Source of the DNA: Betaproteobacteria bacterium
GTDB taxonomy: Bacteria; Pseudomonadota; Gammaproteobacteria; Burkholderiales; Usitatibacteraceae
Direction: 5' to 3'
NCBI GenBank assembly: GCA_016791265.1
Contig: JAEUMY010000023.1
Location: forward strand, 1-64,000
DNA: 64,000 nucleotides
The notes beneath the pieces were generated by a model. The model searched no databases. It was not told the origin of the DNA and saw only the letters and a list, made by a program, of their open reading frames with translations. Below, in pieces: positions 41,872 to 63,685 of the stretch. Numbering within the stretch: position 1 is the first letter of the stretch; every line of letters begins with the position of its first letter. The position numbers and the translations under genes are program-made.

Positions 41872-42270
41872 AGGCTGAGCTTCCTTCCCTGAGTGGCGGC
41901 GGCCTCGCGCCCGCGCGCGGCGGATTCGCATGGACCGTCTGTTCGTCTGGGCCGATTGTCCTGCCAAATCGGCGGCCGGCAAAAGCCGGGAAGGATGGCA
42001 GCACGCGCCCCAAATTGCAACGCGAACGGGTCAACGCCTTATCCGCCAGACAACTTTCGCAACAAATCAGGATGGTTTAAGCTGGCTGTCACGGAACTGC
42101 AACAAAGTCTCATTAGTCTTCAGCAAGTTTCTGTTTCTTCCCGTTTTTTCCGCGCAATCCAGTCGTTCCAGCTTGCGCGCCAAATCATAAAGAGGGCGGG
42201 CGGCGGCCTCAACAAGGCGCTGACTCGTTTTGCCAGAACGCATTCACAACCAATCCAGGGAATATTCGCC
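41872..42270. other. Divergent regulatory region, nucleoside transporter / TonB receptor
   Basis: 399 bp without a supported gene. It contains the Pho box at 42086-42103 and, just before the receptor ATG, a one-mismatch palindrome (42258-42269). The part nearer the transporter (41872-42080) shows no clear signal. Confidence 0.5.
42086..42103 (+). promoter_or_regulatory. Pho box (PhoB binding site)
   Basis: CTGTCAC (42086-42092), four bases, then CTGCAAC (42097-42103), matching the direct-repeat PhoB consensus of two 7-mers CTGTCAT spaced by 4 bp. A third weaker 7-mer TCTCATT follows after four more bases (42108-42114). It is oriented toward the TonB receptor gene, 168 bp from its start. Phosphate-starvation control is inferred. 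Confidence 0.65.
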
Positions 42271-45200: not shown

Positions 45201-45657
45201 CGGCGGCAACGACCTGATGTACATCCCGTCCGCGCCCGGATCGGGCGACGTGGTGTTCCGCGGCGGTCAGGCTGAAGAGGACCGTTTCTGGGAAGTCGTC
45301 AACGGTGATCGCGCGTTGCGGTCCGCGCGTGGCGGCATCGTCGGCAAGAACAACAGCTATGGTCCGTGGGTGAACACCTTCGACGTGCGCATGGCGCAGG
45401 AGCTGCCCGGCGCGATGAAGGGGCACAAGCTCTCGCTCGTGTTCGACATCCTCAACTTCGGCAACATGCTGAACAAGAAGTGGGGCCGCATCGAGGAAAT
45501 CACCTTCCCCTCCAATCGCAGCTTTGTGAACTTCAACGGTCTCGACGCCAATGGCCGCTACATTTACAGCCTCGGTTCGACGGAGCAGTTGGTCGTCCGC
45601 CAGGCCTCGGGTGAGTCGCAGTGGGCCGCGCAAATGACGCTGCGTTACGAGTTCTGA
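42271..45657 (+). CDS. Oar-like TonB-dependent outer-membrane receptor
   Basis: 1128 residues. Signal peptide 1-28 (LSVGLALGTLPALAQ), a carboxypeptidase-regulatory-like domain (about 30-105, GGRITSTDGKPTEGASVTIT), a plug domain (about 130-250) and a long beta-barrel ending with aromatic Phe (MTLRYEF). The Oar-like type typically imports large or complex substrates, and in several proteobacteria is induced by phosphate limitation. A Pho box upstream and a 5'-nucleotidase downstream suggest a role in phosphate-compound uptake. The palindrome variant covers its ribosome binding region. Antisense open frames here are shadows. Confidence 0.9.
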   Translation: MRKSDRIRLSTLVLSVGLALGTLPALAQNTTAAVGGRITSTDGKPTEGASVTITHVESGTSNNVLTDANGRYSARGLRVGGPYTITITKGGVTEKRENVYLVLAETAAIDAVLGAPKAEKIEISAAALSDRFDSAAMGAGTNIGREQLAAQASIGRNLQDYARQDPRLAQTDKERGEISALGQNTRFNSITIDSMTTNDTFGLEANNLPTLKQPVSIDAIESVQVNLSNFDVTQKGYTGANINAVTKSGTNEFHGSVYFVTRDEKLAGKRFNQTTNTYFDAPVFKEETKGVTLGGPIIKDKLFFFASYEDFVSSRGRPNFGPIGSTFTNVSITQSAIDQAIGIARNTWSMDVGTSTVPQDLELTVKDTLLKLDWNINNDHRASVRYTKTEQAEPNLAGFSATGLSLSSWWYNQIKEIEGLVGQWFADWSPNLSTEVKLSKRDYGVVQPAVNGARLPAIGLRFEGTPPGGVGSTNNRFLNMGTELSRHFNVLNTKTKDAYFGGNWRLGEHEVKGGVDYADNDVFNAFLQNVNGNYTFGCAAGANTAAQCAAMTPEQRDAAVLENFRLGIPISYTVQLPLAGRTLADGIATWSYANTGLFLQDTWAYNPNLSFTFGVRVDRQSVPTKPIANPGVAAAKVAGNISPTGVITRDSGGFGLDNTVTLDGNSLLQPRFGFNLNLSEPGTRRQLRGGFGLFQGAAANVWLSNPFSNTGMAVGQLNCTTATDCAARNVRFSPNPDAQPGLTGTPPSPNVDMLASDLEQPSVWKMNLAFDTELPELPFFGKLTAGVEWIRTAVNSGIYYRHLNLGAPTATGRDGRSLYYTPQTYSINCWTGSNFNTTGTGCAGGRNRALSNPLFNNVFEAAKTKKGGGEAVTLSVERPLSRGWGWNLAYTYSRYSEVSPLTSSTSNSQWLNNNIFNVNENVAGPSNYNTRDRINGSFTWSKAFFGKNKTTFGIFYEGRSGKPYSWTYLNDLNGDGIGGNDLMYIPSAPGSGDVVFRGGQAEEDRFWEVVNGDRALRSARGGIVGKNNSYGPWVNTFDVRMAQELPGAMKGHKLSLVFDILNFGNMLNKKWGRIEEITFPSNRSFVNFNGLDANGRYIYSLGSTEQLVVRQASGESQWAAQMTLRYEF

Positions 45658-48507: not shown

Positions 48508-48648
48508 GGCGAACGGGAATCCTCAAGAGGGCGTTGCAGGGTGAATCGCGATTGTAGACAACTGACTCGACCGCTTGCCAGGGCCGCACAGCCACGCGAT
48601 GATAGCCCTGTCATTTTCCGGTCCACATATTCTGCATCAACGTCCACC

Positions 48649-49719
48649 ATGAAATCTCGCGTCAAAACGCAACCTTCGGCTTCGCCAGCATCAACGCGAA
48701 AGTCCCGCCGTGCCCATGGCGGCGTTACTTTGCAGGACGTTGCGCGGCTGGCCGGGGTGTCCCCCATCACCGCATCACGCGCCATCAACCAGCCCGATGT
48801 GGTTTCCGAAGACGCGCGAGAACGCGTGCAGCGCGCGATTCGCCAAACCGGCTACACACCCAACCTTCTCGCTGGCAGTCTTGCCTCCAGCCGATCACGG
48901 TTGGTTGCCGTCGTTGTCCCCACGCTCACCGGGCCGATGTTCATGGAGACGATCCAGGCGCTGACCGAGCGGCTTGCGGAAGTTGGTTACCAGGTGATCA
49001 TCGGACAAAGCGGCTACGACAATGCGCGCGAGGACGAACTTCTGAACGCGATCATCGGTCGCCGCCCCGATGGCATCGTGCTCACGGGAGTTGCGCACTC
49101 CGCCAAGGGCCGCGTGCGCCTCGCTGGTGCTGGCATCCCGGTGGTCGAGACCTGGGATTTCATTCCCACGCCCATCGACATGCTGGTTGGCTTTTCGCAC
49201 GACTCCATCGGGCCAGAGGTCGCGGCGTTCCTGCGCCAGCGCGGGTGCAAGCGCGTCGCCGTCCTGAGCGCGGATGACGAACGCGCCGTGCGTCGGGCAA
49301 AGTCCTTCGCCGCTGCGGCGCATGCGCTACGCATCACGGCGGGCAAGACGGCGAATTCCTCATGCGAATGGCTACCAGCGCTGACGTCGCTGGGCGTGGG
49401 CCGGCGCGGATTCGCCGCGTTGTTCGAACGCCTGCCCAAGCTGGATGGTGTGTTCTGCAGTTCCGATGTCGTGGCCCAGGGCGTATTGGCGGAAGCGCAG
49501 GCGCGCGGACTGCGTGTACCGGAGGACTTGGCTGTCGTTGGCTTCGGCGATCTGGCTTTCGCACCGGACCTGCATCCGCCGCTCACCACTGTGCGCGTGG
49601 ACGCCAATGAGATGGGCCGCATCGCTGGCGATCTGATCCTGAAGCGTGTGGCCGGCGAGTCTGTCAAGACGCGCTTGGTGGATGTGGGCTTTTCAATTGT
49701 CGAGCGCGGGAGCGCCTGA
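48649..49719 (+). CDS. LacI-family regulator 1 (near ketoglutarate semialdehyde dehydrogenase)
   Basis: 356 residues from the ATG at 48649. The HTH (TLQDVARLAGVSPITASRAI, about residues 24-43) and a periplasmic-binding-like effector domain with GIVLTGVAHSAK and VFCSSDVVAQGVLAEAQARG are present. A palindromic operator at 49803-49818 overlaps the promoter of the next genes, so it probably represses dehydrogenase and kdgD until a sugar acid is present. It resembles GntR-type LacI proteins. Confidence 0.9.
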   Translation: MKSRVKTQPSASPASTRKSRRAHGGVTLQDVARLAGVSPITASRAINQPDVVSEDARERVQRAIRQTGYTPNLLAGSLASSRSRLVAVVVPTLTGPMFMETIQALTERLAEVGYQVIIGQSGYDNAREDELLNAIIGRRPDGIVLTGVAHSAKGRVRLAGAGIPVVETWDFIPTPIDMLVGFSHDSIGPEVAAFLRQRGCKRVAVLSADDERAVRRAKSFAAAAHALRITAGKTANSSCEWLPALTSLGVGRRGFAALFERLPKLDGVFCSSDVVAQGVLAEAQARGLRVPEDLAVVGFGDLAFAPDLHPPLTTVRVDANEMGRIAGDLILKRVAGESVKTRLVDVGFSIVERGSA

Positions 49720-49848: not shown

Positions 49849-51279
49849 ATGAGGCCGAACTACGTGGGGGGCGCTTGGGTGGCCGCGCAACAGTCCGCAC
49901 CCAATATCAACCCGTCTGACATCAAGGACGTGATCGACGAATACGCTTCTGGCGACGCCGCGTTGGTGGATCAGGCCGTGCAGGCGGCGCGCGCGGCGTT
50001 TTCCGCCTGGGCGCGATCTGGTCCGCAGGTGCGAGCGGATGCGCTGGACATCATCGGCAGCGAAATACTGGCCCGCCGGGCGGAGCTGGGGGATCTCTTG
50101 GCCCGCGAGGAGGGCAAGACCCTGCCCGAGGCCATTGGCGAAGTCACGCGTGCCGGGCACATATTCAAATTCTTCTCCGGTGAAGCCCTGCGCCCACATG
50201 GCGAGCTTATGCCTTCCGTGCGGCCAGGCGTCCAGGTCGAGATCACGCGCGAAGCGGCGGGTGTCGTTGGGCTGATTGCGCCATGGAATTTTCCGATTGC
50301 CATTCCGGCCTGGAAAATCGCGCCAGCCCTCTGCCACGGCAACTGTGTGATATTCAAGCCCGCCGATCTGGTGCCAGGCTCGAGCTGGGTGCTTGCCGAC
50401 ATCATCAGCCGTGCCGGGCTGCCGGACGGGGTGTTCAATTTGGTGATCGGGCCAGGCTCGCTGGTGGGAAACGCGATGGTCAATCATCCCGGCATCGACG
50501 CGATCAGCTTCACCGGCTCGGTGTCCACCGGTGAACGGATCGCACGCGCAGCTATCGAGCGCCGTGTCAAGGTGCAATTGGAAATGGGCGGCAAGAATCC
50601 GTTGGTGATCGTCGACGACGCAAGTCTTGAGCAAGCCGTTGAAGTCGCGATCCAAGGTTCGTTCTACTCAACCGGGCAGCGCTGCACCGCATCCAGCCGT
50701 GTCATCGTGACCGCCGGAATTCACGATGCATTCATGCGGCGGTTCACCGAACGAGCGAAGGCGCTCGTTGTGGGTGATGCGCGCGACAAGGCCACGCAGA
50801 TCGGCCCGGTGGCCAGCGAGGCTCAACTTGATCAGAACCTTCGCTACATCGAAATCGGAAAGTCAGAAGGCGCAAAGCTGCTCTGTGGTGGGGAGCGCAT
50901 CAGCGGCAAGACCGACGGCTACTACTTCACGCCGGCTGTCTTCGCAGAGTGCAGCAACAGCATGCGCATTTCACAGGAGGAAATCTTCGGGCCGGTGGCC
51001 TCGGTGATCCGCGCCGCAAACTACGACGAGGCGTTGGCGATGGCCAATGACACACCATTCGGCCTATCCGCAGGCATTTGCACAACCTCTCTCAAGCTCG
51101 CGACGGACTTCAAGCGCAATGCCCAGGCCGGGATGGTGATGGTCAACGTGCCCACTGCGGGCGTGGACTATCACGTGCCGTTCGGTGGACGCAAAGGATC
51201 CAGCTACGGGACGCGCGAGCAGGGTCGCTACGCAGCCGAGTTCTTCACCACGGTGAAGACAGCCTACACCGGGCTCTGA
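49849..51279 (+). CDS. Alpha-ketoglutarate semialdehyde (2,5-dioxopentanoate) dehydrogenase
   Basis: 476-residue ALDH. Motifs: [18 protein letters not shown], the NAD-binding [12 protein letters not shown], the catalytic Glu in QLEMGGKNP and the catalytic Cys in [11 protein letters not shown]. The C-terminal [20 protein letters not shown] is of the KGSADH type. It oxidises 2-oxoglutarate semialdehyde to 2-oxoglutarate. The gene is immediately upstream of kdgD, which makes that semialdehyde, so the two form the last steps of hexarate breakdown. GAGGAG precedes the ATG. Confidence 0.9.
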
Positions 51280-51311
51280 ACCGGGCACTTCACACAACAC
51301 AGGGAAATTTC

Positions 51312-52223
51312 ATGCACCACGATGAACTGAAGAAGATTCTGGAAGCAGGGCTGTTGTCCTTCCCATTGACAGATTTTGATGAGCAAGGCCGGTTCAACAA
51401 GACCACTCATGTCAAGCGCCTTGAATGGCTGATGCCATATGGTGCGTCAGCGCTATTCTCGGCAGGTGGCACCGGCGAGTTCTTCTCGCTGGAACCTGGC
51501 GAATATTCGCAAGTGGTGGGGACGGCGGTGGACACCTGTCGTGGCAGGATACCCATCATCGCAGGCGCTGGCGGTGGCACGTCGCTTGCCATCAAATATG
51601 CGCAAGAAGCAGAGCGCCTTGGTGCGCAAGGCATTCTGCTGCTGCCCCACTACCTCACCGAAGCCCCGATGGACGGCATCGTCGCGCACGTGAAAGCCGT
51701 CTGCAAGAGCGTCAGGTTCGGCGTGATCATCTACAACCGCGCTGCGTGCCGCCTGGATGCGGAAGCATTGCAGGAGCTGGCCGATGCATGCCCCAACTTG
51801 ATTGGCTTCAAGGATGGATTCGGCGAGATCGAATCCATGGTGACCATTCGCCAAAAGCTGGGTGACCGGTTTGCCTACCTGGGTGGATTGCCAACGGCGG
51901 AACTCTACGCGGCGCCATACAAGGCCATGGGGGTGCCGGTGTACTCATCCGCCGTGTTCAACTTCATTCCCAAGACGGCGGTCGACTTCTACAAGGCGCA
52001 TGCGGCCGGTGACACTTCGACAACCAATCACCTTATAGAAAGCTTTTTCCTGCCGTACGTGGCACTGCGCAACCGCAAGGCCGGTTACGCCGTCAGCATC
52101 GTGAAGGCTGGCGCGAAACTGGCAGGCCACGACGCCGGCCCGGTGCGTTCACCGCTCGTGGATTTGAGTGATGCCGAGGTGGAAATCCTGTCCGCGCTAA
52201 TGAAGCCGCTGGGTTCGCAATAG
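51312..52223 (+). CDS. kdgD: 5-dehydro-4-deoxyglucarate dehydratase
   Basis: 303-residue TIM-barrel aldolase-family enzyme. The Schiff-base Lys167 lies in IGFKDGFGE, Tyr141 in IIYNRAA, and the GTGEFFSL loop is at 53-60. It removes water and CO2 from 5-dehydro-4-deoxyglucarate to give 2-oxoglutarate semialdehyde, the substrate of the upstream dehydrogenase. AGGGAAA precedes the ATG at 51312, 33 bases after the previous stop. A palindrome is read as EYS (PGEYSQVV). Confidence 0.95.
51499..51510. repeat. GCGAATATTCGC palindrome in kdgD
   Basis: Perfect 12-mer read as EYS. Confidence 0.9.
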
Positions 52224-52394: not shown

Positions 52395-55106
52395 CTAGAA
52401 TTTCACATCCAGACGCAAGGTCAGGAAGCGGAACGCATCGCGCTCCGGTCTCCAGGCGGAAATGGAGACTGTCGCGGGAAGCGCTGCTGACCCTCGATAT
52501 GCTGGGGTGGAACCGAAACCGTTGATGACGTACTGGCGATCGAACAGGTTTTTCACCAGCAGAGTCAGCTTGTAGCGGTCCTTCTTGTCTCTGATCCCCA
52601 ACCCCAGATCCACGATCGTGTACTCGGGAGCGCGGCTGTCAGGGTCCTGAATGATATTCGTGATGATGCTGCTCTGATGCTTCAGATTGCCATTGATGAA
52701 AGCGTCAAACGGCATGTTTGCCATGCGGATGTCATAACTTCCGCTGATGACCACCTTGTGCCGGGGCGCGTTGAACATTGGCGCACCAGACAGATCTTGC
52801 ACACCTTGGGTGTCGCCTGCGAATGCTGGAAAACAGTTGCTATTGCGACCAGCAATCGATCCATTCGCGGCAAAGATTGTCGTGCCAACCCGGACGTTTC
52901 CGGAGTCGTTGTAGCAAGCGGCTGATTTCCACTCCTGGATGCGGGCTTCTGTGTAGGCATAGCTAAGACTCATGCTGAAGTCGCGCGTCAGTTGCGCGTT
53001 CATGTCGAGCTCGAATCCGCGAGTGCGGATCTTCGGCAAGCTTGAGAGCCGCGTAACCGTGCCCGCCCCTTCACCCAAGCTCACTGTCATGGCCTGCTGA
53101 TAGTCCCGAAACTCGGTATTGAACACTGAGGTTGCGATCGAGACCCTGTCGTCCAGCAGATTGGCCTTGAGGCCCATCTCGGTCGAGAACGCTTCCTCTG
53201 GAGGCACCGGCGCCGACGTGTTCGAGCTCAGTCCACTCAGCAGGTCATAGGCGATACCCTTGTGTCCGGTGGCCAGCATGACATAGCCCATCCAATTTGA
53301 ATTGAACTGCCTTTGCAGACTCAACTTGCCGGTGATGGCCCTGTCCTTCTCCGAAGGCACGGAAAACACGTTGGTTGCCGCAGCGCCAGGCGTGAACGTG
53401 TCCCGTGTGGCCTGGGTGAAGAAGTTTCTGGCGAAGTTGTAGCCTGATTTCTCCCACGCGACGCGCGCACCGGCAAGCAACGTGTAGCCTGGTGTGAATT
53501 CCCAGGTCGCCTGTCCGAAAATCGCTTTATTGTCATGATAGACGTCGGCGATATACACGACGGGGCTGCCTACGGATGAGCTGGAACATGCTGTGGGCGG
53601 CCGGCAGTCCCCGCGATTGAAGTAGCGATCAGTCTCGTCCTTTGCAATCCAGACCCCGGCCAGATAGCGGAAAGCGCCAGTGTCGGGTGACACCAGTCTG
53701 AATTCCTGCGTGCGTGTGGTGATGTCATAGGTGCCCTGTTGCGGGTTGCCCACGCTTACGGGAATGGTGAGGATCGAACTCCCTGTCACCGGCGCAGTCG
53801 TCGGCACGACCTGCACAGGAACGTCGCCAAAGTCGCGGTCTAGAAAATCTTTGGCATTGAACTTGTCGAATGACGTGATCGACATGAGCGTGGCGTCGTT
53901 CGGCAAGGCATAGGTGAGCTTTGCGCCCACCCCTTTATTGGTTGACTCCAGGCCCCCAGGGTGGTCGCGGCGTATGTCGCGATTCCACTCTGTCGGATTG
54001 ATCCCCGCCAGCGCCACGGATGCCGGGATCGCGTTGATGGAGCTCGCGGTGGCCGGGAATCCGCCCGGGCTATTGGCGGGAATCAGAAATACGGGCAGCG
54101 ACGATCCGCCGGGCCCCAATGTGTTGACTCCGCCTGCCCCGCCCTGCTGACGCTCGCCGATGGCGCCCTGGGTTGCGGCATTGGTGCCGGTATTTCTGAT
54201 TGCGAACTGCCGAAGCGCGGTGGGGCTTCTGGTATTGCTTGAGTCGTTGTAGTAGGGCATGACATCGACATCCAGGCCGCCCGCCGGCCGCCATGCCAGC
54301 TTGGCCATGAAAGTCTTGCCTCGCGAACCGTTCACCTTTTGGCCCGTTGTGAGGTTGTTCAAATTGCCGGGGAAATCAGCATGGCTGGCGGCGAAGCGCA
54401 GCCCCAGCCCTTCATTGAGGTATCCGCCGTAGGAGACGCTGTAGCGCCTCTCGCCATCGTCCGTGGTCAAGAGAGTGGCTCGCCCCTGCGGCGGCCCGCT
54501 GATCGGCTTGGTCACGATGATGAGGCCTCCTGCGATCGCGGACCGCCCGAAAAGCGTGCTCTGTGGACCTTTCAGAACTTCAACCCGGGCAATGTCGGCG
54601 AGATCGCGAAATGCCTGAAATTGATTCGCAATGGGGATGTCGTCCATGATGACCACCACGTCACCCTCGACACCAATGCTGTTGGTTTGGGTGCCCACGC
54701 CGCGCATGGAAATCGTGTTGTTCGCGCTGGTGGTTCCGGTGTTCACGTTCAGAGCGGAGCTCAGCGAGACGATGTCCTCCATCTCTCGCACATTGTTGCG
54801 CGCAATCACCTCCTCGGCGAGTACGGAAATGGATAGCGGCACGCTCTCCAATTTCTCCACTCGCTTGTTGGCGGTCACGACGATTCTCTGCAGCTTGCCG
54901 TCTTCCGATTTGGCGTCCTCATTCGTGGTGGCCGGCTTGGGGGTGGTCTGCGCTGGCGTCTGCGCGATCGCCGCGCTGAACGGAATTGCGATGCCAGCGG
55001 CGAGGCTGATGGCCAGCCCCACCGCTCTTGCAAGAGGCTTTCGCCTTGCGGTGAGCGTGTCAAGTTGCGCGGGCTGAGGTTGATTTTCGGGTCGATTGGG
55101 TTTCAA
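52395..55106 (-). CDS. TonB-dependent receptor (uronide uptake candidate)
   Basis: 903 residues from a TTG at 55106. This start is supported by GAAGGAGAGG just before it and by a signal peptide (LARAVGLAISLAAGIAIPFS then AAIAQ). Longer in-frame extensions would run into the upstream gene. The plug has QRIVVTANKRVEKLESVPLS and VEVLKGPQSTLFGRSAIAGG, and the barrel ends TLRLDVKF with the terminal Phe. It belongs to a polysaccharide-utilisation-like cluster with a putative secreted lyase and hexuronate genes, so oligouronide import is likely but unproven. A 12-bp-class operator is upstream of the preceding gene. Confidence 0.9.
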   Translation of the reverse strand: MKPNRPENQPQPAQLDTLTARRKPLARAVGLAISLAAGIAIPFSAAIAQTPAQTTPKPATTNEDAKSEDGKLQRIVVTANKRVEKLESVPLSISVLAEEVIARNNVREMEDIVSLSSALNVNTGTTSANNTISMRGVGTQTNSIGVEGDVVVIMDDIPIANQFQAFRDLADIARVEVLKGPQSTLFGRSAIAGGLIIVTKPISGPPQGRATLLTTDDGERRYSVSYGGYLNEGLGLRFAASHADFPGNLNNLTTGQKVNGSRGKTFMAKLAWRPAGGLDVDVMPYYNDSSNTRSPTALRQFAIRNTGTNAATQGAIGERQQGGAGGVNTLGPGGSSLPVFLIPANSPGGFPATASSINAIPASVALAGINPTEWNRDIRRDHPGGLESTNKGVGAKLTYALPNDATLMSITSFDKFNAKDFLDRDFGDVPVQVVPTTAPVTGSSILTIPVSVGNPQQGTYDITTRTQEFRLVSPDTGAFRYLAGVWIAKDETDRYFNRGDCRPPTACSSSSVGSPVVYIADVYHDNKAIFGQATWEFTPGYTLLAGARVAWEKSGYNFARNFFTQATRDTFTPGAAATNVFSVPSEKDRAITGKLSLQRQFNSNWMGYVMLATGHKGIAYDLLSGLSSNTSAPVPPEEAFSTEMGLKANLLDDRVSIATSVFNTEFRDYQQAMTVSLGEGAGTVTRLSSLPKIRTRGFELDMNAQLTRDFSMSLSYAYTEARIQEWKSAACYNDSGNVRVGTTIFAANGSIAGRNSNCFPAFAGDTQGVQDLSGAPMFNAPRHKVVISGSYDIRMANMPFDAFINGNLKHQSSIITNIIQDPDSRAPEYTIVDLGLGIRDKKDRYKLTLLVKNLFDRQYVINGFGSTPAYRGSAALPATVSISAWRPERDAFRFLTLRLDVKF

Positions 55107-55210
55107 TTTCCTCTCCTTCAACAGTGGGATTTGGTGCTGTGCCTGGCTTGCCGGCCGATTGGAATCAGCGCTTGTTGGTTTCGTCGCGCAGGTCGCGGCG
55201 CGCGCTGGAG

Positions 55211-57094
55211 TTAGCGATAGTTCAGTGTCCAGCTGACGCTGAGCGGTTTCGCGAAGATGAATCGTCCCCGGGAGCAGGAAATGATCGTGCGCATCGGACC
55301 GGTCGGTGACTGGAAGTCGGCTTCTCCCTCGGATGATCGCGCGGTGCATCCCTCGAGGCCGCTCACGCTGAAGCGCGTAGCGGCGCCGGACTTGAATGTG
55401 AAAGATGATCCAGCCTGCTTGGCATCCTCGGAGAAGCTCAGAAAGTCCAGCGTCAGACTGTCGATGGCGAGGGAGTCTGCGGCCGTGAACCGATCGGTTC
55501 GAGTGACTGTCCCCTTTGAAAACTGATAGCTGGTCTCGACGCGGATGCGTGGGTCCGGGCGCGGTGCCTGGTCGCCGACGCGATTGAGCTCGGTTTGCGT
55601 GTAGTTGACCTGATGACCTGAAGGTGTCCGAGTCGCCTTGATGCCGCGAATGAACACAGTGGGCAGAAGCACCGACCCGTCAGCCAGCGTGAATTTGGGA
55701 GTGAGCTGGGCATATGCCGGTCCGCTGTCAGCAACACCGGCCACCAAGCCCTCAGAGTAGGGCAGTGGATAGTAGGGGCTGTTTGCGTGCTGTCCCGCCG
55801 CGCCATTGACCATCAACAGGCTGAAGGTACGAGCACCGTCGCGAACAACCGCGAGAGCGCGGTCGTACTCGCCCTTGGCGAACCAGTTCAGGGTGAATAG
55901 AGGTTGCGTGCGCACGATCCATGCGCCGAGATCAGTTGCGGGACGCGCATCGCGCATGCCGGCCGCATTCCAGTGCTGGTTCGTCGCCACGTACTGGTGT
56001 AGCAGCGACAGGTTTTCGCCCAGGATACGGTGCTTGCCCCGGTAAGCATCCGTGCGCCGGCCTTTGCCCCATAGGTCGACAGAGCGCATGCTTGTGTCAT
56101 GCCAGAACGCCAGATATCTTTCCGCGATACGCACCGAGTAGGCGTAGGCGTATTTCTTCTCCTCGGGATTGAGTACGCCGAGGCGCGCCGATATGGATAG
56201 GATTTCCAATGCCGATGTGTCAGCGTATGCGCCGATACTGCGCCCGAAGCTGAACCCATGGCCGTCGGTGTTGGCGAGGGAAAGTGTGATCTTCGCCGCC
56301 TTGCCCAGCAGGGTCAGGAGCTCTGGCGGCACATCAAGTTCCGCTTCCACGAAGCGCTGGCAAAGCTCGGCGATGAGCAAGATGCTGTACCGATCGAATC
56401 GACCCTGCCCTTCGGTCTCGTCGGAGAAGCCGTACTGCGAATATTCGCGATAGTGGTTGAGTGTCTTGAGCAGCAATGCATCGGCGCCGGAGGAGTCCTC
56501 CCATCCCATCAGCACCCGTAGCCGTGCCACGCTAAAGGCCACGCCATAGTAGTTGGCCGGCAGATTGATCAGGGTGTGGCTGGCGGGGTTGACGAAGTGA
56601 CGCCAATCGAGCTTTCGCTTCAGCGTGTCCAGTGTTTGCGCATCAACTGCGCGACTCAGCAGCCCCGCCTTTCTCAAGCGATTCAGCGCAGACAGGTAGT
56701 AGTAGATGCCCCAGGTCTCGTTGTCCATCGCGAGGGTGACGCGCGCGACTTCCTGGTACTGGCGCAGGCGATCTGGCAGGCTTGAATCCAGACTTGGGGT
56801 TTCGACCAGAACGTGCGCCATCCCGATGGCGATTTTCCCGGGCAGAAACTTGTCCCTGCTACGCAGGACGGCGACGCCATCGAGTTTCGCCGCCTCCTTC
56901 TCCGAAGCGAGCAAGTTGAAGTAGTCGCCCAACATGGGCAGCATTTTCTGCGTGACGATGCGGTCTAGGCTGTTCTCCGCGCGGTGCGTCTCCGCACGGG
57001 CGGGCGCAATCCAAATTGCCGCAGCCAGTGAAATGCAAGTCGCGATCCGGTGAAAGGCATGCGAGCCGAGCGTCAAGGATGAGTATGTGTTCAT
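55211..57094 (-). CDS. Secreted putative polysaccharide lyase of unassigned family
   Basis: 627 residues from the ATG at 57094. The signal peptide ends PARA (about residue 34). The first 400 residues are rich in amphipathic helices (WGIYYYLSALNRLRKAGLLS; YSILLIAELCQRFVEAEL), consistent with an alpha/alpha toroid, and conserved-looking aromatic/His segments include HTLINLPANYYGVAFSVARL, NTDGHGFSFGRSIGAYADTS and ENLSLLHQYVATNQHW. The C-terminal third is beta-rich (RVETSYQFSKGTVTRTDRF). I cannot match it to a named family. Location between a TonB receptor and uronate genes and under the LacI-2 operator suggests a uronic-acid polysaccharide lyase or hydrolase. Confidence 0.6.
   Translation of the reverse strand: MNTYSSLTLGSHAFHRIATCISLAAAIWIAPARAETHRAENSLDRIVTQKMLPMLGDYFNLLASEKEAAKLDGVAVLRSRDKFLPGKIAIGMAHVLVETPSLDSSLPDRLRQYQEVARVTLAMDNETWGIYYYLSALNRLRKAGLLSRAVDAQTLDTLKRKLDWRHFVNPASHTLINLPANYYGVAFSVARLRVLMGWEDSSGADALLLKTLNHYREYSQYGFSDETEGQGRFDRYSILLIAELCQRFVEAELDVPPELLTLLGKAAKITLSLANTDGHGFSFGRSIGAYADTSALEILSISARLGVLNPEEKKYAYAYSVRIAERYLAFWHDTSMRSVDLWGKGRRTDAYRGKHRILGENLSLLHQYVATNQHWNAAGMRDARPATDLGAWIVRTQPLFTLNWFAKGEYDRALAVVRDGARTFSLLMVNGAAGQHANSPYYPLPYSEGLVAGVADSGPAYAQLTPKFTLADGSVLLPTVFIRGIKATRTPSGHQVNYTQTELNRVGDQAPRPDPRIRVETSYQFSKGTVTRTDRFTAADSLAIDSLTLDFLSFSEDAKQAGSSFTFKSGAATRFSVSGLEGCTARSSEGEADFQSPTGPMRTIISCSRGRFIFAKPLSVSWTLNYR
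56437..56448. repeat. GCGAATATTCGC palindrome in the putative lyase gene
   Basis: Perfect 12-mer read as EYS (HYREYSQYG). Last perfect copy in the window. Confidence 0.9.
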
Positions 57095-57399
57095 CGTTCG
57101 CTTGATAGGGGAGGACGCTGAATTTCGTGGTGCGGGCACTTGGTGGGACACCGACTTCAGTCTTGCAACTTCGATCGAGCTGCGATCAGCAAGCGCCGTG
57201 CTACGCGTGCAGTCCGGCGAGCGCTGCCACTCGAAGGCATTTTTCTGTTGCGATTTCACTGGCTGCGTCTCTCCACGTTTTTCGCTGATGCTTGCCGCTG
57301 CCGACGCGCGAATGGGTGTGTGACAGGGCTCCTGGCCGCGAGCGGCACAGTGCTGACCTCTTTGTCCGCGTCACCAATCAGCTACCACCCACCTGCTGG

Positions 57400-57411
57400 T
57401 GAAACGTTTTC
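57400..57411. promoter_or_regulatory. LacI-2 operator O1
   Basis: TGAAACGTTTTC with core AAACGTTT (57402-57409), placed at the expected +1 of the lyase promoter. One of four sites with this core. Confidence 0.7.
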
Positions 57412-57413
57412 GT

Positions 57414-57442
57414 AAATTAGCTCTCTCGCCGGGAATTGTCAA
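57414..57442 (-). promoter_or_regulatory. Sigma70 promoter of the lyase-TonB receptor genes
   Basis: On the minus strand TTGACA (57442-57437) and TAATTT (57419-57414) are 17 bp apart. The AAACGTTT operator lies just downstream, at the expected start of transcription. The leader to the lyase gene is about 310 nt. Confidence 0.75.
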
Positions 57443-57584
57443 CCAGTGTGATGAGGCTTGAGAGGTTGCTGCCGAGAGCGGAGGAGTTGATGTCAGATAA
57501 TGTAATTAAATATCAATACCTTAAATGCTTGCCCATGCAGACATTGTGAGCACGAGTGGCACATTGCCTATCAAGCGTATAAAG

Positions 57585-57596
57585 AAAAACGTTTAC
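57585..57596. promoter_or_regulatory. LacI-2 operator O2 (auxiliary)
   Basis: AAAAACGTTTAC with core AAACGTTT (57587-57594), 185 bp from O1 and 54 bp past the end of the LacI-2 gene. The distance would allow a DNA loop with O1. Confidence 0.55.
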
Positions 57597-57647
57597 CTTT
57601 TTGATGGAAACAAGTTTCCCGCCACCATTCGAGATGGCAAACGCGCT

Positions 57648-58742
57648 TCAGGTGCGACGGTAAGCAGGCTTGCAGGAGGCCAGCACTGCTGCGCTGGTTG
57701 GTTTGGCGCGGCGCGGTTTGCCCTGTTCGCCAGCTCTCGCGGGCACGCTGACGCGCAGCCGTGTGGATTCGCGGATGACCAGCCGAGGCTCAAGCGTGAT
57801 GTGTTCCACGGTAGTGGGAAGATCACCGGCGATGTGACGGAAAAGAAGGCGCATGCCTTCTTCGCCAAGGCGCTCACTTTGGGTATCGACAGTCGTCAAC
57901 GCCGGACTGGTGTAACGGCTGAACGGAATGTTGTCGATTCCAACCACTGACAAGTCTTCAGGGATGGACATGCCCAGAGATCTGGCCACGCCCATGAAGC
58001 CGATGGCTACCATGTCGTTGTAGCAGATGACCGCGTCGGGCTTGGATTTGCGGAGCAGAACGCTGGAGCAGACGCGTTCGCCTTCGGCCATGGTCGGCCC
58101 GCGCACTTCGTGCCGGGTAAGGGGAAGGCCGTGCGCCTCCAGGCAATCCACCAATCCGCGCATGCGCTCGCGGTCAGGGCGCGCCGGGGCAAAGCCGATG
58201 TATGCAATGTTCCGGTGGCCTTGCTTGACCAGCATTTCAGCGATCATGTACGCCGCAGCGTAAGCATCAATGCCGATACTCGGCACTCCTTTCGGGCCGG
58301 GCCGCCCGGAAAATACCACGGGCTTGCCGTAGCCCAGAATGCGGTGGAGCTGGTCTTCCGGCATGCGCGTGCTGACCACCAGGCCGTCCACGCGTCGGCT
58401 GAGCGCGTCAAGGAGTTCATCCTCGCGCGCCTGGCTTTCCTCGGTGTCCACAAACAGCAGGTTGTATCCGTGCTCCAGCGCGACGCGATTGGCACCCTTC
58501 ACGATGTTGGTGAAGTGTGGATTGCAAATATCCAGGATGGCAACGCCTACCGAACCTGTCTTTCCGGTGATCATGCTCCTGGCCAGTGGATTGCTCTGGT
58601 AGCCCAGCTTGTCTATCGCAGCCTGGATGTTGTGCTCGACCGCGGGTGTGAAGCGCTGCGCGCCGTTGATGTACTTCGAGACAGTGGCGATGGAAACACC
58701 AGCATTGGCGGCAACATCGCGTATGGTTGGGTTTTTTCGCAT
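57648..58742 (-). CDS. LacI-family regulator 2 (hexuronate regulon)
   Basis: 364 residues from the ATG at 58742 (MRKNPTIRDVAANAGVSIAT, the LacI HTH), with the effector domain containing VGVAILDICNPHFTNIVKGA and DAVICYNDMVAIGFMGVARS, and a basic C-terminal tail. It lies between the lyase-receptor genes and the divergent uronate operon. The four AAACGTTT operators around it, one just upstream of its own start, make it the probable repressor of both; the inducer is likely a uronate or oligouronide (inference). Confidence 0.9.
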   Translation of the reverse strand: MRKNPTIRDVAANAGVSIATVSKYINGAQRFTPAVEHNIQAAIDKLGYQSNPLARSMITGKTGSVGVAILDICNPHFTNIVKGANRVALEHGYNLLFVDTEESQAREDELLDALSRRVDGLVVSTRMPEDQLHRILGYGKPVVFSGRPGPKGVPSIGIDAYAAAYMIAEMLVKQGHRNIAYIGFAPARPDRERMRGLVDCLEAHGLPLTRHEVRGPTMAEGERVCSSVLLRKSKPDAVICYNDMVAIGFMGVARSLGMSIPEDLSVVGIDNIPFSRYTSPALTTVDTQSERLGEEGMRLLFRHIAGDLPTTVEHITLEPRLVIRESTRLRVSVPARAGEQGKPRRAKPTSAAVLASCKPAYRRT

Positions 58743-58745
58743 GAG

Positions 58746-58757
58746 ATAAACGTTTTC
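58746..58757. promoter_or_regulatory. LacI-2 operator O3 (autoregulatory)
   Basis: ATAAACGTTTTC with core AAACGTTT (58748-58755), four bases upstream of the start codon of the regulator gene. Confidence 0.65.
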
Positions 58758-58862
58758 CGTACTAGTGGGTTCGGACTGACCGGTTGAGGCGGGAGACGGG
58801 AGCAAGCGGCAGCAAGCGTACACAGAATTCACGACTCATGGGAGCTACTCCATTAGATCGTC

Positions 58863-58891
58863 TTGACAGTCAGGCGCGTGATTGGCAATAT
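58863..58891 (+). promoter_or_regulatory. Promoter of the uronate operon
   Basis: TTGACA (58863-58868) with a weak -10 CAATAT (58886-58891) 17 bp downstream. The operator O4 follows at once. The gap 58743-59044 between the divergent genes also holds O3 and nothing else recognised. Confidence 0.6.
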
Positions 58892-58894
58892 GTG

Positions 58895-58906
58895 GAAAAC
58901 GTTTTC
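58895..58906. promoter_or_regulatory. LacI-2 operator O4
   Basis: Perfect 12-bp palindrome GAAAACGTTTTC at the expected +1 of the uronate operon promoter, the same layout as O1. Confidence 0.8.
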
Positions 58907-59044
58907 TTCATGTCGCCGTGTTTTGCGATGCAGCCCTAAGATTCGCGCCTGCGGGCCGCGCTAGCCTGGCACCCGCGCTGCGCGAGAAAGCGCCGACACG
59001 CAAACCGCGAGCGCCGCTCACCAATTACAGGATGGACAGATTCC

Positions 59045-59857
59045 ATGGCACACGACAAAGCATACGCTCGCTTGCTTCTCACCGGCGCCAGCGGCGGACT
59101 GGGCAAGGTGTTGCGCAAAGGGTTGAAGCCAATGGCTCGGACTCTCAGATTGTCGGATCGTGTTGGTTTGGAGCCGCCTGAGGAGAACGAGGAAGTCGTG
59201 CTGTGCGATCTGGCCGACCGCTCGGCTGTGCAGAATTTGGTGGCGGGCGTGGACGGCATCGTTCACTTCGGCGGCATTTCGCTCGAAGATCGGTTCGACC
59301 CGATCCTCCAATCCAATATCGTCGGCGTATTCAACCTCTATGAAGCGGCACGGAAGCACGGGGTTGCTCGAGTGGTGTTCGCCAGCTCCAATCATGTCAC
59401 TGGTTTCTATAAGCAGACTGAACGCATCGATGCCGCGGCACCCGTGCGCCCCGACGGGCTGTATGGCATCAGCAAGTGCTTCGGTGAAAATCTGTCGCGC
59501 TACTACTTTGACCGCTATGGCATCGAGACTGTCTGCCTGCGCATCGGCTCATCGTTTCCGGGAGTGAAGGATCGCCGCATGCTGGCGACGTTTCTCAGCT
59601 ATCGCGACTTGGTCGAATTGGTGCGCTGCGCACTGTTCACGCCGGTAGTGGGGCACACGATCGCCTATGGCAATTCAAACAACCGCGATAGCTGGTGGGA
59701 CAACCGGCTGTCGGCGCATCTGGGATTCGTGCCGCAGGATTCGGCTGACGATCAGCGGGCTCACGTCGAGGCCAATGTACCGCTGCCGGCGGAGAATGAC
59801 CCAGCACGCGTGTATCAGGGCGGCGCATTCGTGGCGGCGGGCCCATTTGATGAGTGA
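59045..59857 (+). CDS. udh: Uronate dehydrogenase
   Basis: 270-residue SDR enzyme. The NAD motif is TGASGGLGKVL (14-20), followed by VHFGGIS, the SSNHVTGFYK serine region, and the catalytic pair Tyr140 and Lys144 in YGISK. These, and IGSSFPGVKDRRMLATFLS, are typical of Udh. It oxidises galacturonate or glucuronate at C1 to the aldaro-lactone using NAD. It is the first gene of an operon with a lactonase and a TRAP transporter, behind operator O4. Its last eight bases overlap the next gene. Confidence 0.93.
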   Translation: MAHDKAYARLLLTGASGGLGKVLRKGLKPMARTLRLSDRVGLEPPEENEEVVLCDLADRSAVQNLVAGVDGIVHFGGISLEDRFDPILQSNIVGVFNLYEAARKHGVARVVFASSNHVTGFYKQTERIDAAAPVRPDGLYGISKCFGENLSRYYFDRYGIETVCLRIGSSFPGVKDRRMLATFLSYRDLVELVRCALFTPVVGHTIAYGNSNNRDSWWDNRLSAHLGFVPQDSADDQRAHVEANVPLPAENDPARVYQGGAFVAAGPFDE

Positions 59858-60833
59858 TCGCATCTCGGTCGACCGCATCACCGAGCCTGTCGATGCCGTG
59901 GGCGAATCGCCCATCTGGCGCGAAGGCGAAGCCGCGCTCTACTGGGTGGACATCACAGCGAGCCGCATACATCGCCTGGAGCTGGCCAGCGCGAGGCGCG
60001 ATAGCTGGCGGACTCCGGAGCAGATCGGATGCATTGCCTTCGACACATTTGGCGATCTCATTGCCGGCATGGAAACAGGCATGTTCCAGCTAGCCTTGAA
60101 GGCGGATGCCAGAGTTGAAGCGGTATGTGTTGCCGCCCCCGATTTTCCATTCGCCGACATGCGCTTCAACGACGGCCGGTGCGATCGCCAGGGACGCTTC
60201 TGGGCCGGAACCATGCACAAGAACATGGCTTCGGCCCACGCTGTCGGGGCGCTCTACTGCTTGCACCCGAACCTTGTCCTCTCCGAGCCGGTGGTTACCG
60301 GACTGGTCACGCAGAATGGCCTTGCCTGGTCGCCGGATGGGCGGGTGATGTACCTCGCCGACTCCCACCCGACCGTGCGCAAGATTTGGTCGTTCGACTA
60401 TGACATCGAAAATGGCCGGCCACGCAACCGCCGCCTGTTCGTCGACATGAACCTGCATCCCGGCCGACCGGACGGTGCGGCTGTCGACGTTGATGGCTGC
60501 TATTGGATATGCGCCAACGATGGAGGCATGCTGCACCGGTTCACGCCGGCGGGCGCACTGGATCGCAGCATTCCGCTTCCCGTGAAAAAGCCGGCCATGT
60601 GCGCCTTCGGCGGAGCGAAAATGGACACTCTGTTCGTGACGTCCATCCGCCCGGTGGCGGCAGCCGATCTGGCTGACCAACCGGATGCCGGCGCCGTGTT
60701 CGCATTGCAGCCGGGCGTGCAAGGCCTGCAAGAAGCGCCATTCCACGCACCCGCCGCCTTCAGCGCGACTATTGCGCGGGGTGGAAAAGGTGAGGTGAGT
60801 GCGATCCGCCAGCCTGATCTGACGGGGAAATGA
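59850..60833 (+). CDS. SMP-30/gluconolactonase family lactonase (aldarolactone hydrolase candidate)
   Basis: 327-residue six-bladed propeller. The metal-binding segments SPIWREGEAALYWVDITASR, FNDGRCDRQGRFWAGTMHKN, TQNGLAWSPDGRVMYLADS and HPGRPDGAAVDVDGCYW are present. It would hydrolyse the lactone made by uronate dehydrogenase to galactarate or glucarate. It overlaps udh by eight bases (ATG at 59850). The specific lactone is inferred from context. Confidence 0.88.
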   Translation: MSDRISVDRITEPVDAVGESPIWREGEAALYWVDITASRIHRLELASARRDSWRTPEQIGCIAFDTFGDLIAGMETGMFQLALKADARVEAVCVAAPDFPFADMRFNDGRCDRQGRFWAGTMHKNMASAHAVGALYCLHPNLVLSEPVVTGLVTQNGLAWSPDGRVMYLADSHPTVRKIWSFDYDIENGRPRNRRLFVDMNLHPGRPDGAAVDVDGCYWICANDGGMLHRFTPAGALDRSIPLPVKKPAMCAFGGAKMDTLFVTSIRPVAAADLADQPDAGAVFALQPGVQGLQEAPFHAPAAFSATIARGGKGEVSAIRQPDLTGK

Positions 60834-60876: not shown

Positions 60877-61872
60877 GTGAATTCATTCATCGGCCTAGGC
60901 AAGCGCATGGCAGTGCCGACTTTCGTGGCACTGTCGATGGCGCTGGCGACGCCTACGCAGGCGCAAACCACTTTCAGGTCCGCCGACGTGCATCCGGCGG
61001 ACTATCCGACGGTGGCCGCGGTGAACTACATGTCCACACTCATCAAGGAGCGCAGTGGCGGACGCCTTGCGATCCGCGTGTATCCGTCCGGCAGCCTGGG
61101 AACGGAAAGAGACAACATCGAGCAGCTCAAGATTGGCGCGCTCGACATGATGCGTATCCATGTGAGCCCGATGAACAGCGTGGTGCCGGAAACGCTGCCG
61201 ATATCGCTGCCATTCATCTTCCGTTCGACCGAACACATGCGCAAGGTGCTGGATGGCCCGCTGGGCGATGAAATCCTGGCTGCGATGGAGTCACAGGGCT
61301 TCGTGGGGCTGGCGTTCTACGATAGCGGCGCGCGGTCCTTCTACACCGCGAAGAAACCGATCAAGACGATCACGGACATGAAGGGCATCAAGGTGCGTGT
61401 GCCGCAATCCGATCTCTTCGTCGACATGGTCAAGGCCCTGGGCGCCAACCCGACACCAATGCCGTTGGGCGAGGTCTATACCGCGCTGAAGACTGGCATT
61501 GTCGATGCCGCCGAGAACAACTGGGCGTCCTATGACACCTCCCGCCACTTCGAGGCGGCCAAGTACTACAACCTGAGCGAACATTCGCATGCCCCCGAGC
61601 TGCTGGTGTTCTCCAAGCGCGCCTGGGACAAGCTCTCCAAGGATGACCAGGCCCTGATCCGCAAGGCCGCGAAGGACTCGGTCCCGCACATGCGAAAGCT
61701 CTGGGATGAACGTGAAACAAAGGCGCGCAAGACCATCGAGGCCGCCGGCAGTCAGATCACCAAGGTGGAAAACCGTCAGGCCTTCGTCGATGCGATGAAG
61801 CCGGTTTATGCCAAGTACGCCAGCGCGCCGAAGCTCGCGGCCATGGTGAAGCGCATCCAGGACACGCAATGA
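60877..61872 (+). CDS. TRAP transporter solute-binding protein (DctP family)
   Basis: 331 residues from a GTG preceded by GAGGAG. Signal peptide ends near TQAQ (about residue 28). Typical DctP features: YPSGSLGTERDNIEQLKIGA, GIKVRVPQSDLFVDMVKALG with the carboxylate-binding Arg, and PLGEVYTALKTGIVDAAENN. It captures an organic acid in the periplasm for the DctQM membrane proteins. Given the operon, uronate or its oxidation product is the likely ligand. A one-mismatch palindrome (61577-61588) lies in SEHSH. Confidence 0.93.
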   Translation: MNSFIGLGKRMAVPTFVALSMALATPTQAQTTFRSADVHPADYPTVAAVNYMSTLIKERSGGRLAIRVYPSGSLGTERDNIEQLKIGALDMMRIHVSPMNSVVPETLPISLPFIFRSTEHMRKVLDGPLGDEILAAMESQGFVGLAFYDSGARSFYTAKKPIKTITDMKGIKVRVPQSDLFVDMVKALGANPTPMPLGEVYTALKTGIVDAAENNWASYDTSRHFEAAKYYNLSEHSHAPELLVFSKRAWDKLSKDDQALIRKAAKDSVPHMRKLWDERETKARKTIEAAGSQITKVENRQAFVDAMKPVYAKYASAPKLAAMVKRIQDTQ

Positions 61873-62411
61873 TCGAATCACAGGATCATGGGGCGCCAAC
61901 CGCGACGCGTGCTGCGCAGTCGCCATACACCACCGTCTGCAAGTTGCTGGCGGGTGCGGGCCTAGTGGTCGCGGTGACCGGTCTCGTTGTCATCATTGGC
62001 ATCGTTGCCTGGCAGGTGTTCGGGCGCTACGTGCTGAACGACAGTCCGACCTGGACTGAGAACCTCGCGCTGGTGATCGTGTTGTACGTGACACTGATCG
62101 GCGCCGCCGTTGGTGTCCGCGACGCGGGGCATATCGGGATGGATTCCCTGTTAACCCTGGTACCGGAAAGCCCGCGGCGCTACATCAGCATGGTCATTCA
62201 GGTGCTGGTGGCCGCGTTTGGCGTTGGCATGGTCTGGAACGGCGCGATCCTTGGTGTCTCGGTCGCACCCTACAAGCTTGCCAATCTCGACCTCTCCGAA
62301 GCGTCACGCTACGTTCCGCTGGTGATCTCCGGCGCGCTCATCGTCCTGTTTTCGATCGAGCACCTGATCGCGCTCATCAACCGCACCGAAGTGGAGCCGA
62401 CATGGCGCTGA
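61869..62411 (+). CDS. TRAP transporter small membrane subunit (DctQ family)
   Basis: 180 residues with four membrane segments (VVAVTGLVVIIGIVAWQVFG onward) and the DctQ motif FGRYVLNDSPTWTENLALVI. It overlaps DctP by four bases (ATGA) and DctM by ten, so the three subunits are coupled. Confidence 0.92.
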   Translation: MIESQDHGAPTATRAAQSPYTTVCKLLAGAGLVVAVTGLVVIIGIVAWQVFGRYVLNDSPTWTENLALVIVLYVTLIGAAVGVRDAGHIGMDSLLTLVPESPRRYISMVIQVLVAAFGVGMVWNGAILGVSVAPYKLANLDLSEASRYVPLVISGALIVLFSIEHLIALINRTEVEPTWR

Positions 62412-63685
62412 CCGTCCTCGCCTTGAGCTTCCTGTTCCTGCTCATCCTGGGTGTGCCGGTGGCGTTCGCCATCGGCATCTCCTCCATCTGCGCAATCCTC
62501 GTCGAGGGTCTGCCCATCGCCGTGCTGTTCCAGCAGATGATGTCGGGGATGAACGTCTTCTCGTTCCTCGCCATTCCGTTCTTCATTTTCAGCGGCGAGC
62601 TCATGCTCCACGGCGGGATCGCGGAACGAATCGTCGCGCTTGCCCGCTCGGTCGTTGGACACATACGTGGCGGGCTCGGCATGTCCAATGTCGTGGCCTG
62701 CACGCTGTTCGGTGGCGTGTCCGGCTCGCCGATCGCGGATGTGTCGGCGATGGGTTCGGTGATGATCCCCATGATGAAGAAGGAGGGCTATCACACCGAC
62801 TATGCCGTCAACGTGACGACCCATGCCTCGCTGGTGGGTGTTCTCATGCCGACCAGCCACAACATGATCATCTACTCGCTGGCGGCCGGTGGCACGGTTT
62901 CCATCAGCGCTCTCATCGCTGCTGGCATCGTGCCCGCGCTGGTGTTGACGGCTTGCATGCTGGCGGCAGCCTATTTCGTCGCCGTGAAGCGTGGCTATCC
63001 CCCGGGCGTGTTTCCAGGCTGGAACGTGATCCTGATCACGCTCGTGGCTTCTCTGCCTGGCCTGCTCATCATCGCCATCATCCTGGTGGGCATACTGTCT
63101 GGCGTATTCACGGCCACCGAGTCGGCAGCTGTGGCGGTGGTGTACTCGATGCTGCTGACGCTGCTTGTGTATCGCAGCATGACCTGGGCCAAGTTTCGTC
63201 ACGCGGCTGCGAAGGCGGTCAAGACGACCGGCGTGGTGTTGCTCCTGATCGGTGTGTCGACCATGTTCCAGTACTTGCTGGCGCTTTACCAGGTCGCCGA
63301 GCTGGCCGGGCAGATGATGGCGTACATCTCGACCAATCCACTGGTCATTTTCCTGATGATCAACATCATCCTGTTCTTGTTGGGCACGTTCATGGACATG
63401 GCGGCGACCATCCTGATCTGCACGCCGATTTTCCTGCCCATCGCGGCGAATCACGGAATGGACCCGGTTCAGTTCGGCATCGTGATGCTGGTGAACTGCG
63501 CGCTGGGATTGAACACGCCGCCCGTTGGTACCACGCAATTTGTCGGGTGCGCCATCGGAGGGATTTCGGTGAGCGAAGTCATGCGTACCATCCTGCCGTT
63601 CTACATCGCGTTGCTAGCCACGCTGTTGGCCGTGACCTATGTGCCAGCCTTCTCGCTCTGGTTGCCAAAACTCTTGATGAGCTGA
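62402..63685 (+). CDS. TRAP transporter large membrane subunit (DctM family)
   Basis: 427 residues with about twelve membrane segments, starting MALTVLALSFLFLLILGVPV. The family motif GGVSGSPIADVSAMGSVMIP is present, and the C-terminal half has the LGLNTPPVGTTQFVGCAIGG segment. It is the sodium- or proton-driven translocation channel partnering DctQ and DctP. It ends the operon. Confidence 0.93.
   Translation: MALTVLALSFLFLLILGVPVAFAIGISSICAILVEGLPIAVLFQQMMSGMNVFSFLAIPFFIFSGELMLHGGIAERIVALARSVVGHIRGGLGMSNVVACTLFGGVSGSPIADVSAMGSVMIPMMKKEGYHTDYAVNVTTHASLVGVLMPTSHNMIIYSLAAGGTVSISALIAAGIVPALVLTACMLAAAYFVAVKRGYPPGVFPGWNVILITLVASLPGLLIIAIILVGILSGVFTATESAAVAVVYSMLLTLLVYRSMTWAKFRHAAAKAVKTTGVVLLLIGVSTMFQYLLALYQVAELAGQMMAYISTNPLVIFLMINIILFLLGTFMDMAATILICTPIFLPIAANHGMDPVQFGIVMLVNCALGLNTPPVGTTQFVGCAIGGISVSEVMRTILPFYIALLATLLAVTYVPAFSLWLPKLLMS

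Follow-up and report, generated by a model that had tools for sequence, protein, structure and literature searches.

Lyases of several families that combine an α/α toroid with β-sheet domains are the closest described systems to the protein reported here. The PL33 lyase BtPL33HA (BT4410) has a toroid and β-sheet domains, and N238, Y291, and H444 have been proposed as its catalytic set (PMC11848413). The corresponding sets are N240, Y294, and H424 in PL12, N192, Y246, and H401 in PL35, and N186, Y239, and H405 in PL39 (PMC12088678). Dermatan sulfate epimerase 1 (PDB 6hzn) carries out a related C5-proton chemistry on a two-domain fold, and epimerises its substrate instead of cleaving it (PMC11848413). 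The PL5 alginate lyases (PF05426) consist of a single toroid domain without a β domain.

The 64-kb stretch of DNA that was analysed (the window) encodes a 627-residue protein, here called the target, that is likely to be a uronic-acid polysaccharide lyase working like the PL33/PL12-type lyases. Comparison with the described systems revealed that (i) the predicted target has toroid and β-sheet domains, as PL33 does, and is similar to it in length (approximately 617 residues in PL33); (ii) the Asn–Tyr spacing of the target (N181–Y236, 55 residues) compares with 53 in PL33, 54 in PL12, and 53–57 across PL33, PL12, PL35, PL39, and PL17; (iii) the Asn–His distance is 255 residues in the target (N181–H436) and 206 in PL33 (N238–H444); (iv) the toroid lyases PL15, PL17, PL35, PL39, and PL8 have the same kind of catalytic residues as the candidates in the target (PMC12088678); (v) the target, with two domains and no PF05426 match, differs from PL5; and (vi) its two-domain model resembles dermatan sulfate epimerase 1. 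The fold matches of two models, the conservation at even helix ends, the Asn–Tyr spacing, the PL5-type and GH88 genes beside relatives, and the shared operators together make a lyase likely, which supports the sequence-only reading of a secreted polysaccharide lyase as a predicted activity.

Gene, protein family, and sequence searches

The minus-strand open reading frame coincides exactly with 55211–57094 (627 codons). An alternative GTG start at 57259 would give a protein of 682 aa; the ATG at 57094 is favoured because a signal peptide, read by eye as MNTYSSLTLGSHAFHRIATCISLAAAIWIAPARA/E and ending APARA/E, begins right at this ATG. The full-length relatives (35%–54% identity) and 97 invariant positions show that the gene is real. 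Cys583 and Cys607 in the β part are invariant in the 11-member alignment (A2, target included), which fits an exported protein. Helices are predicted up to residue 396 and strands from residue 412, approximately the same in both models, and the helix-rich N-terminal two thirds and β-rich C-terminal third read from the sequence are thus borne out.

The family comprises 11 proteins, and the relatives align with the target over most of its length. The two Massilia relatives (L002 and L003) are 53%–55% identical, the relative from Asticcacaulis sp. AND118, annotated “hypothetical protein”, 44%, that from a further genome in the class (G635) 40%, and those from Burkholderia, Caballeronia, and Paraburkholderia 33%–38%. 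Further relatives occur in a genome from the window’s own bacterial family (G021, locus L004) and in another Burkholderiales genome (G289, locus L010) with a Massilia-like gene order. The family is rare, being found in 4 of 399 genomes of the order, the window’s own counted in. The N-termini of the Burkholderia and Caballeronia members read by eye as lipoprotein signals.

The target protein had no Pfam or NCBIfam match up to E = 10 and no meaningful phmmer match among PDB sequences, and the 11-member family profile retrieved no PDB chain. Searched individually, all 11 members lacked a meaningful match to named families of Pfam and NCBIfam; weak matches to BRK, DUF7345, and a His-rich family, in 1 or 2 members each, were taken as chance. 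PL33 chains of the PDB were not retrieved at E ≤ 10 by phmmer or by the family profile, no member matched PF07940 (Hepar_II_III, the PL12/PL21-type heparinases), and the target and its family had no Pfam match to PF05426 (PL5-type) or PF07470 (GH88/GH105). No sequence match to PL12, PL15, PL17, PL35, PL39, or PL8 and no sequence similarity to dermatan sulfate epimerase 1 was found. The hhalign comparison of the family with PF07940 and PF05426 proteins from the same genomes detected no relation, and a local hhalign stretch with GH88 (64% probability over 97 columns only, from shallow alignments) was set aside. No relatives were found in IMG/VR and phage records, and Rfam gave nothing in the target region. 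The lack of a family signature noted from the sequence alone thus holds for Pfam, NCBIfam, and PDB sequences, in which no convincing match to a non-carbohydrate family was found either. By sequence comparison, the target belongs to none of the families tested, and its family is probably new as judged against Pfam, NCBIfam, and PDB sequences.

Predicted fold and candidate active site

Only three sequences entered the structure prediction, and the 2 models are therefore weak (pLDDT 53.6 and 55.6; pTM 0.47 and 0.49). In Foldseek searches against the PDB at E ≤ 0.001, all 14 matches of the first model were PL33, PL12, PL15, or PL8 lyases, and all 18 of the second were PL12, PL33, PL15, PL8, or PL39 lyases or dermatan sulfate epimerase 1, with alignments covering both domains in either model. 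PL33 was the best fold match along with PL12, whose heparinase III (HepC of Pedobacter heparinus; 4mmh and 4mmi) ranked top for the second model; PL15, PL17, PL35, PL39, and PL8 gave two-domain matches in one or both models. The structural check proposed with the sequence-only reading thus places uronic-acid polysaccharide lyases first, in low-confidence models. The global TM-scores of the Foldseek matches are low (0.2–0.3), as expected if the models misplace the 2 domains relative to each other. VIA-align 2 gave Z values of 12–14 for the two-domain lyases and the epimerase, with an rmsd near 20 arising from domain placement; many single-domain α/α barrels reach similar or higher Z values. The toroid-only VIA-align lists are full of (α/α)6 enzymes, including GH154, sugar epimerases, GH48, and GH105, so the toroid by itself does not discriminate between lyase and hydrolase, and the two-domain match tells more. 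Prediction supports for the target a fold of an (α/α)6 toroid and an antiparallel β-sheet with a cleft between the domains, which places it provisionally, at a pLDDT of 54–56, in the class of (α/α)n-toroid and β-sheet lyases.

In toroid enzymes, the substrate cleft lies at the N-terminal ends of the even helices. With the helix numbering of the first model, invariant residues occupy 36 of 90 positions at the N-terminal ends of even helices and 13 of 90 at those of odd helices (p = 2e-4, Fisher), and the invariant polar and aromatic residues number 21 at even and 6 at odd ends. Invariant at the even ends are N125, W128, N181, Y182, D225, E226, R232, D234, R235, Y236, R285, Y290, W342, R346, D349, Y351, and R352. 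We propose Asn181, Tyr236, and His436 as a candidate catalytic set. A second invariant pair, N125–Y182, has a spacing of 57 and fits too, so spacing by itself does not settle the choice. His436 lies early in the β domain; 7 of the 11 members have it, and the 4 Burkholderia-type members carry Asn instead. For these 2 reasons, the catalytic assignment is put forward as a proposal.

Neighbouring genes and operators

The target lies among genes for uptake and uronate metabolism (Table 1). The true start of the TonB receptor is probably further in than its ORF start. Of the neighbours named in the sequence-only reading, KdgD and the TRAP proteins DctP and DctM hold at the NCBIfam cut-offs, and “uronate dehydrogenase” is a name that we infer, the best NCBIfam match (Azf) being far below its cut-off. 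Farther away, at 41893–45657, lies the gene of another large outer-membrane protein of the TonB type, whose N-terminus looks carboxypeptidase-regulatory-like by eye; a gene for a 5'-nucleotidase-like protein follows, and neither is a uronate gene.

Table 1. Coordinates of the target, its neighbours, and operator-like sites in the window
Feature	Position	Strand	Remarks
Second LacI-family regulator	48541..49719	+	Adjoins aldehyde dehydrogenase/KdgD pair
Probable alpha-ketoglutaric semialdehyde dehydrogenase	49849..51279	+	Best NCBIfam match, below cut-off
KdgD, 5-dehydro-4-deoxyglucarate dehydratase	51078..52223 (ORF)	+	Passes NCBIfam cut-off; family match from residue 81
TonB-dependent receptor	52395..55349	-	Directly downstream of target; ORF overlaps target’s end
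Target, candidate uronic-acid polysaccharide lyase	55211..57094	-	627 aa; signal peptide; toroid ~76–400; β domain ~412–627
LacI-type operator core AAAACGTTT	57402..57410	-	Upstream of target
LacI-type operator GAAAAACGTTTACC	57584..57597	+	Upstream of target
LacI-family regulator	57648..58832	-	Start probably near 58742 at MRKNPTIRDVA
LacI-type operator GATAAACGTTTTCC	58745..58758		At probable lacI start
LacI-type operator GGAAAACGTTTTCT	58894..58907		Between lacI and udh
Udh-like NAD-dependent dehydrogenase	59045..59857	+	Epimerase family; presumed substrate
SMP-30/gluconolactonase-like lactonase	59667..60833 (ORF)	+	Clear match; SGL domain from residue 78
TRAP solute-binding protein DctP	60877..61872	+	Passes NCBIfam cut-off
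TRAP small permease	61869..62411	+	By position and sequence; no NCBIfam match
TRAP large permease DctM	62402..63685	+	Passes NCBIfam cut-off

The relative in the window’s own bacterial family repeats the set of TRAP, SMP-30-like, Udh-like, LacI, and target genes, judged by sequence resemblance. In Massilia locus L002, the gene order is GH88 (PF07470), TonB receptor, Udh-like, LacI, target, and a PL5-like lyase (PF05426), and L003 has the same order by eye. The L002 PL5-like lyase matches PDB chains 7wxj (E 5e-67) and 7fhu, the latter of which we take to be Smlt1473. Hyaluronan, poly-glucuronate, and alginate are substrates of the Smlt1473 lyase (PMC8511899). The Asticcacaulis relative has a PF05426 lyase encoded immediately upstream and a GH88-DUF4861 protein immediately downstream; its locus also holds GH2, GH3, a further PF05426 protein, and two copies of kduI. 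The G635 relative (L016, G635:C6:114000-132000) is surrounded by 3 large PF05426 proteins with extra unassigned regions and a 536-aa protein without a Pfam match, with an ABC transporter and an epimerase-family gene after them; the locus could serve synthesis instead of degradation. PL5 enzymes encoded next to the family member in several genomes probably share its polymer substrate.

GH88 enzymes take off the unsaturated uronate left by lyases, and, of the contextual evidence, their presence beside relatives argues most strongly for elimination chemistry. Profile searches found no KduI in the L002, L003, and G289 genomes, though GH88 and PL5-like genes are present there. The Burkholderia-type loci L008, L009, L011, and L012 encode lipoprotein-like members with Asn in place of His436 and show no uronate genes nearby (by eye); these relatives may have a different substrate or role.

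The motif AAAACGTTT has 5 matches in the 64 kb, compared with 0.2 expected, and all lie inside 57402–58905. Two precede the target, one is at the lacI start, and the remaining 2 are the strand matches of a palindrome between lacI and udh. The same core occurs between udh and lacI in four related loci (L002, L003, L014, and L015). It also precedes GH88 in the Massilia loci and the target relative in L014. Judging from these operator-like sites, a single LacI-type repressor probably controls the target, the TonB gene next to it, and the Udh-SMP30-TRAP genes. No such operator was found near KdgD and the aldehyde dehydrogenase, whose neighbour is another LacI gene. The earlier claim that one repressor controls the set therefore stands for part of it, namely the target, lacI, and the Udh-SMP30-TRAP genes.

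Proposed activity, product route, and alternative readings

From these comparisons we infer the chemistry, catalytic residues, substrate, and uptake as follows. The exported target would bind a uronic-acid polymer in the interdomain cleft; our best guess, from the PL5, GH88, and Udh neighbours, is a polymer rich in glucuronate. Asn181 and nearby invariant Arg residues would neutralise the uronate carboxylate, and Tyr236, helped in most members by His436, would abstract the C5 proton and donate a proton to the departing glycosidic oxygen (β-elimination). The TonB receptor and TRAP transporter would import the products, and the genes would be induced jointly through the LacI repressor acting on AAACGTTT sites.

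Several observations count against a lyase: (i) the low model confidence, TM-scores of 0.2–0.3, and lack of a profile-level sequence relation to lyase families; (ii) the second Asn–Tyr pair and the variation of His436; and (iii) the Burkholderia-type members without nearby uronate genes. In addition, profile searches of the home genome (approximately 90% complete) found no PF05426, GH88/105, KduI, or PF07940 gene, so the usual route of lyase products is not visible there. Its one PF04295 protein scores 149 bits against a galactarate dehydratase cut-off of 731, and its one MR_MLE protein above cut-off is best named Ala-Glu epimerase, below that family’s cut-off; that is to say, no clear aldarate dehydratase was found among the PF04295 and MR_MLE proteins checked. 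The missing route could reflect unrecognised oligomer-finishing enzymes, genes in the unassembled tenth, a hydrolase, or direct oxidative entry.

On direct oxidative entry, the target would be an exolytic lyase of a new family, and the unsaturated uronate that it sets free would open to 4-deoxy-5-ketouronate, to be oxidised at C1 by the Udh-like enzyme to 5-keto-4-deoxyglucarate, the substrate of KdgD. Such a pathway would reach alpha-ketoglutarate in few steps and bypass GH88, KduI, KduD, and aldarate dehydratase, and the lack of GH88, KduI, and a clear aldarate dehydratase in the home genome is consistent with it. Against it stand the lactonase gene that adjoins the dehydrogenase and the incompleteness of the genome, and we regard the route, whose oxidation step is chemistry on paper, as doubtful.

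The target could instead be a glycoside hydrolase built on a toroid, such as a glucuronidase, and release saturated uronate for the dehydrogenase, lactonase, and KdgD to process. A saturated uronate would fit the Udh-like and SMP-30 genes, the home genome’s lack of GH88 and KduI agrees with this reading, the toroid alone also matches hydrolases and other barrels, and the invariant acids D225, E226, D234, and D349 are present. However, the two-domain Foldseek matches at E ≤ 0.001 contain no hydrolases, and relatives adjoin GH88 enzymes, which need lyase products; a hydrolase is thus unlikely. Less probable still is a role as a uronyl C5-epimerase, modifying the polymer without cleaving it as dermatan sulfate epimerase 1 does: that enzyme is among the fold matches and the G635 locus could be read in this way, but most other genomes have the target among genes for degradation and uptake that are controlled by a sugar-type repressor. 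We give the least credence to a non-catalytic polysaccharide-binding protein or inactive lyase relative, which would account for the difference in His436 between branches but not for the clustering of invariant polar and aromatic residues in the predicted cleft, as in an enzyme.

If the target is a lyase, this family, unnamed in general libraries, would extend a well-studied fold class by an enzyme whose specificity has yet to be defined and which occurs in several proteobacteria and, as probable lipoproteins, in Burkholderia and Caballeronia. Uronic-acid lyases are applied in the breakdown of exopolysaccharides and biofilms and in the preparation of defined oligosaccharides. The cluster of AAACGTTT-core operators, conserved in position in relatives, offers a handle for defining the regulon, and the pairing of the target family with PL5 and GH88 genes points to a common polymer. 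A set of proteins now annotated as “hypothetical” would become testable by one simple assay.
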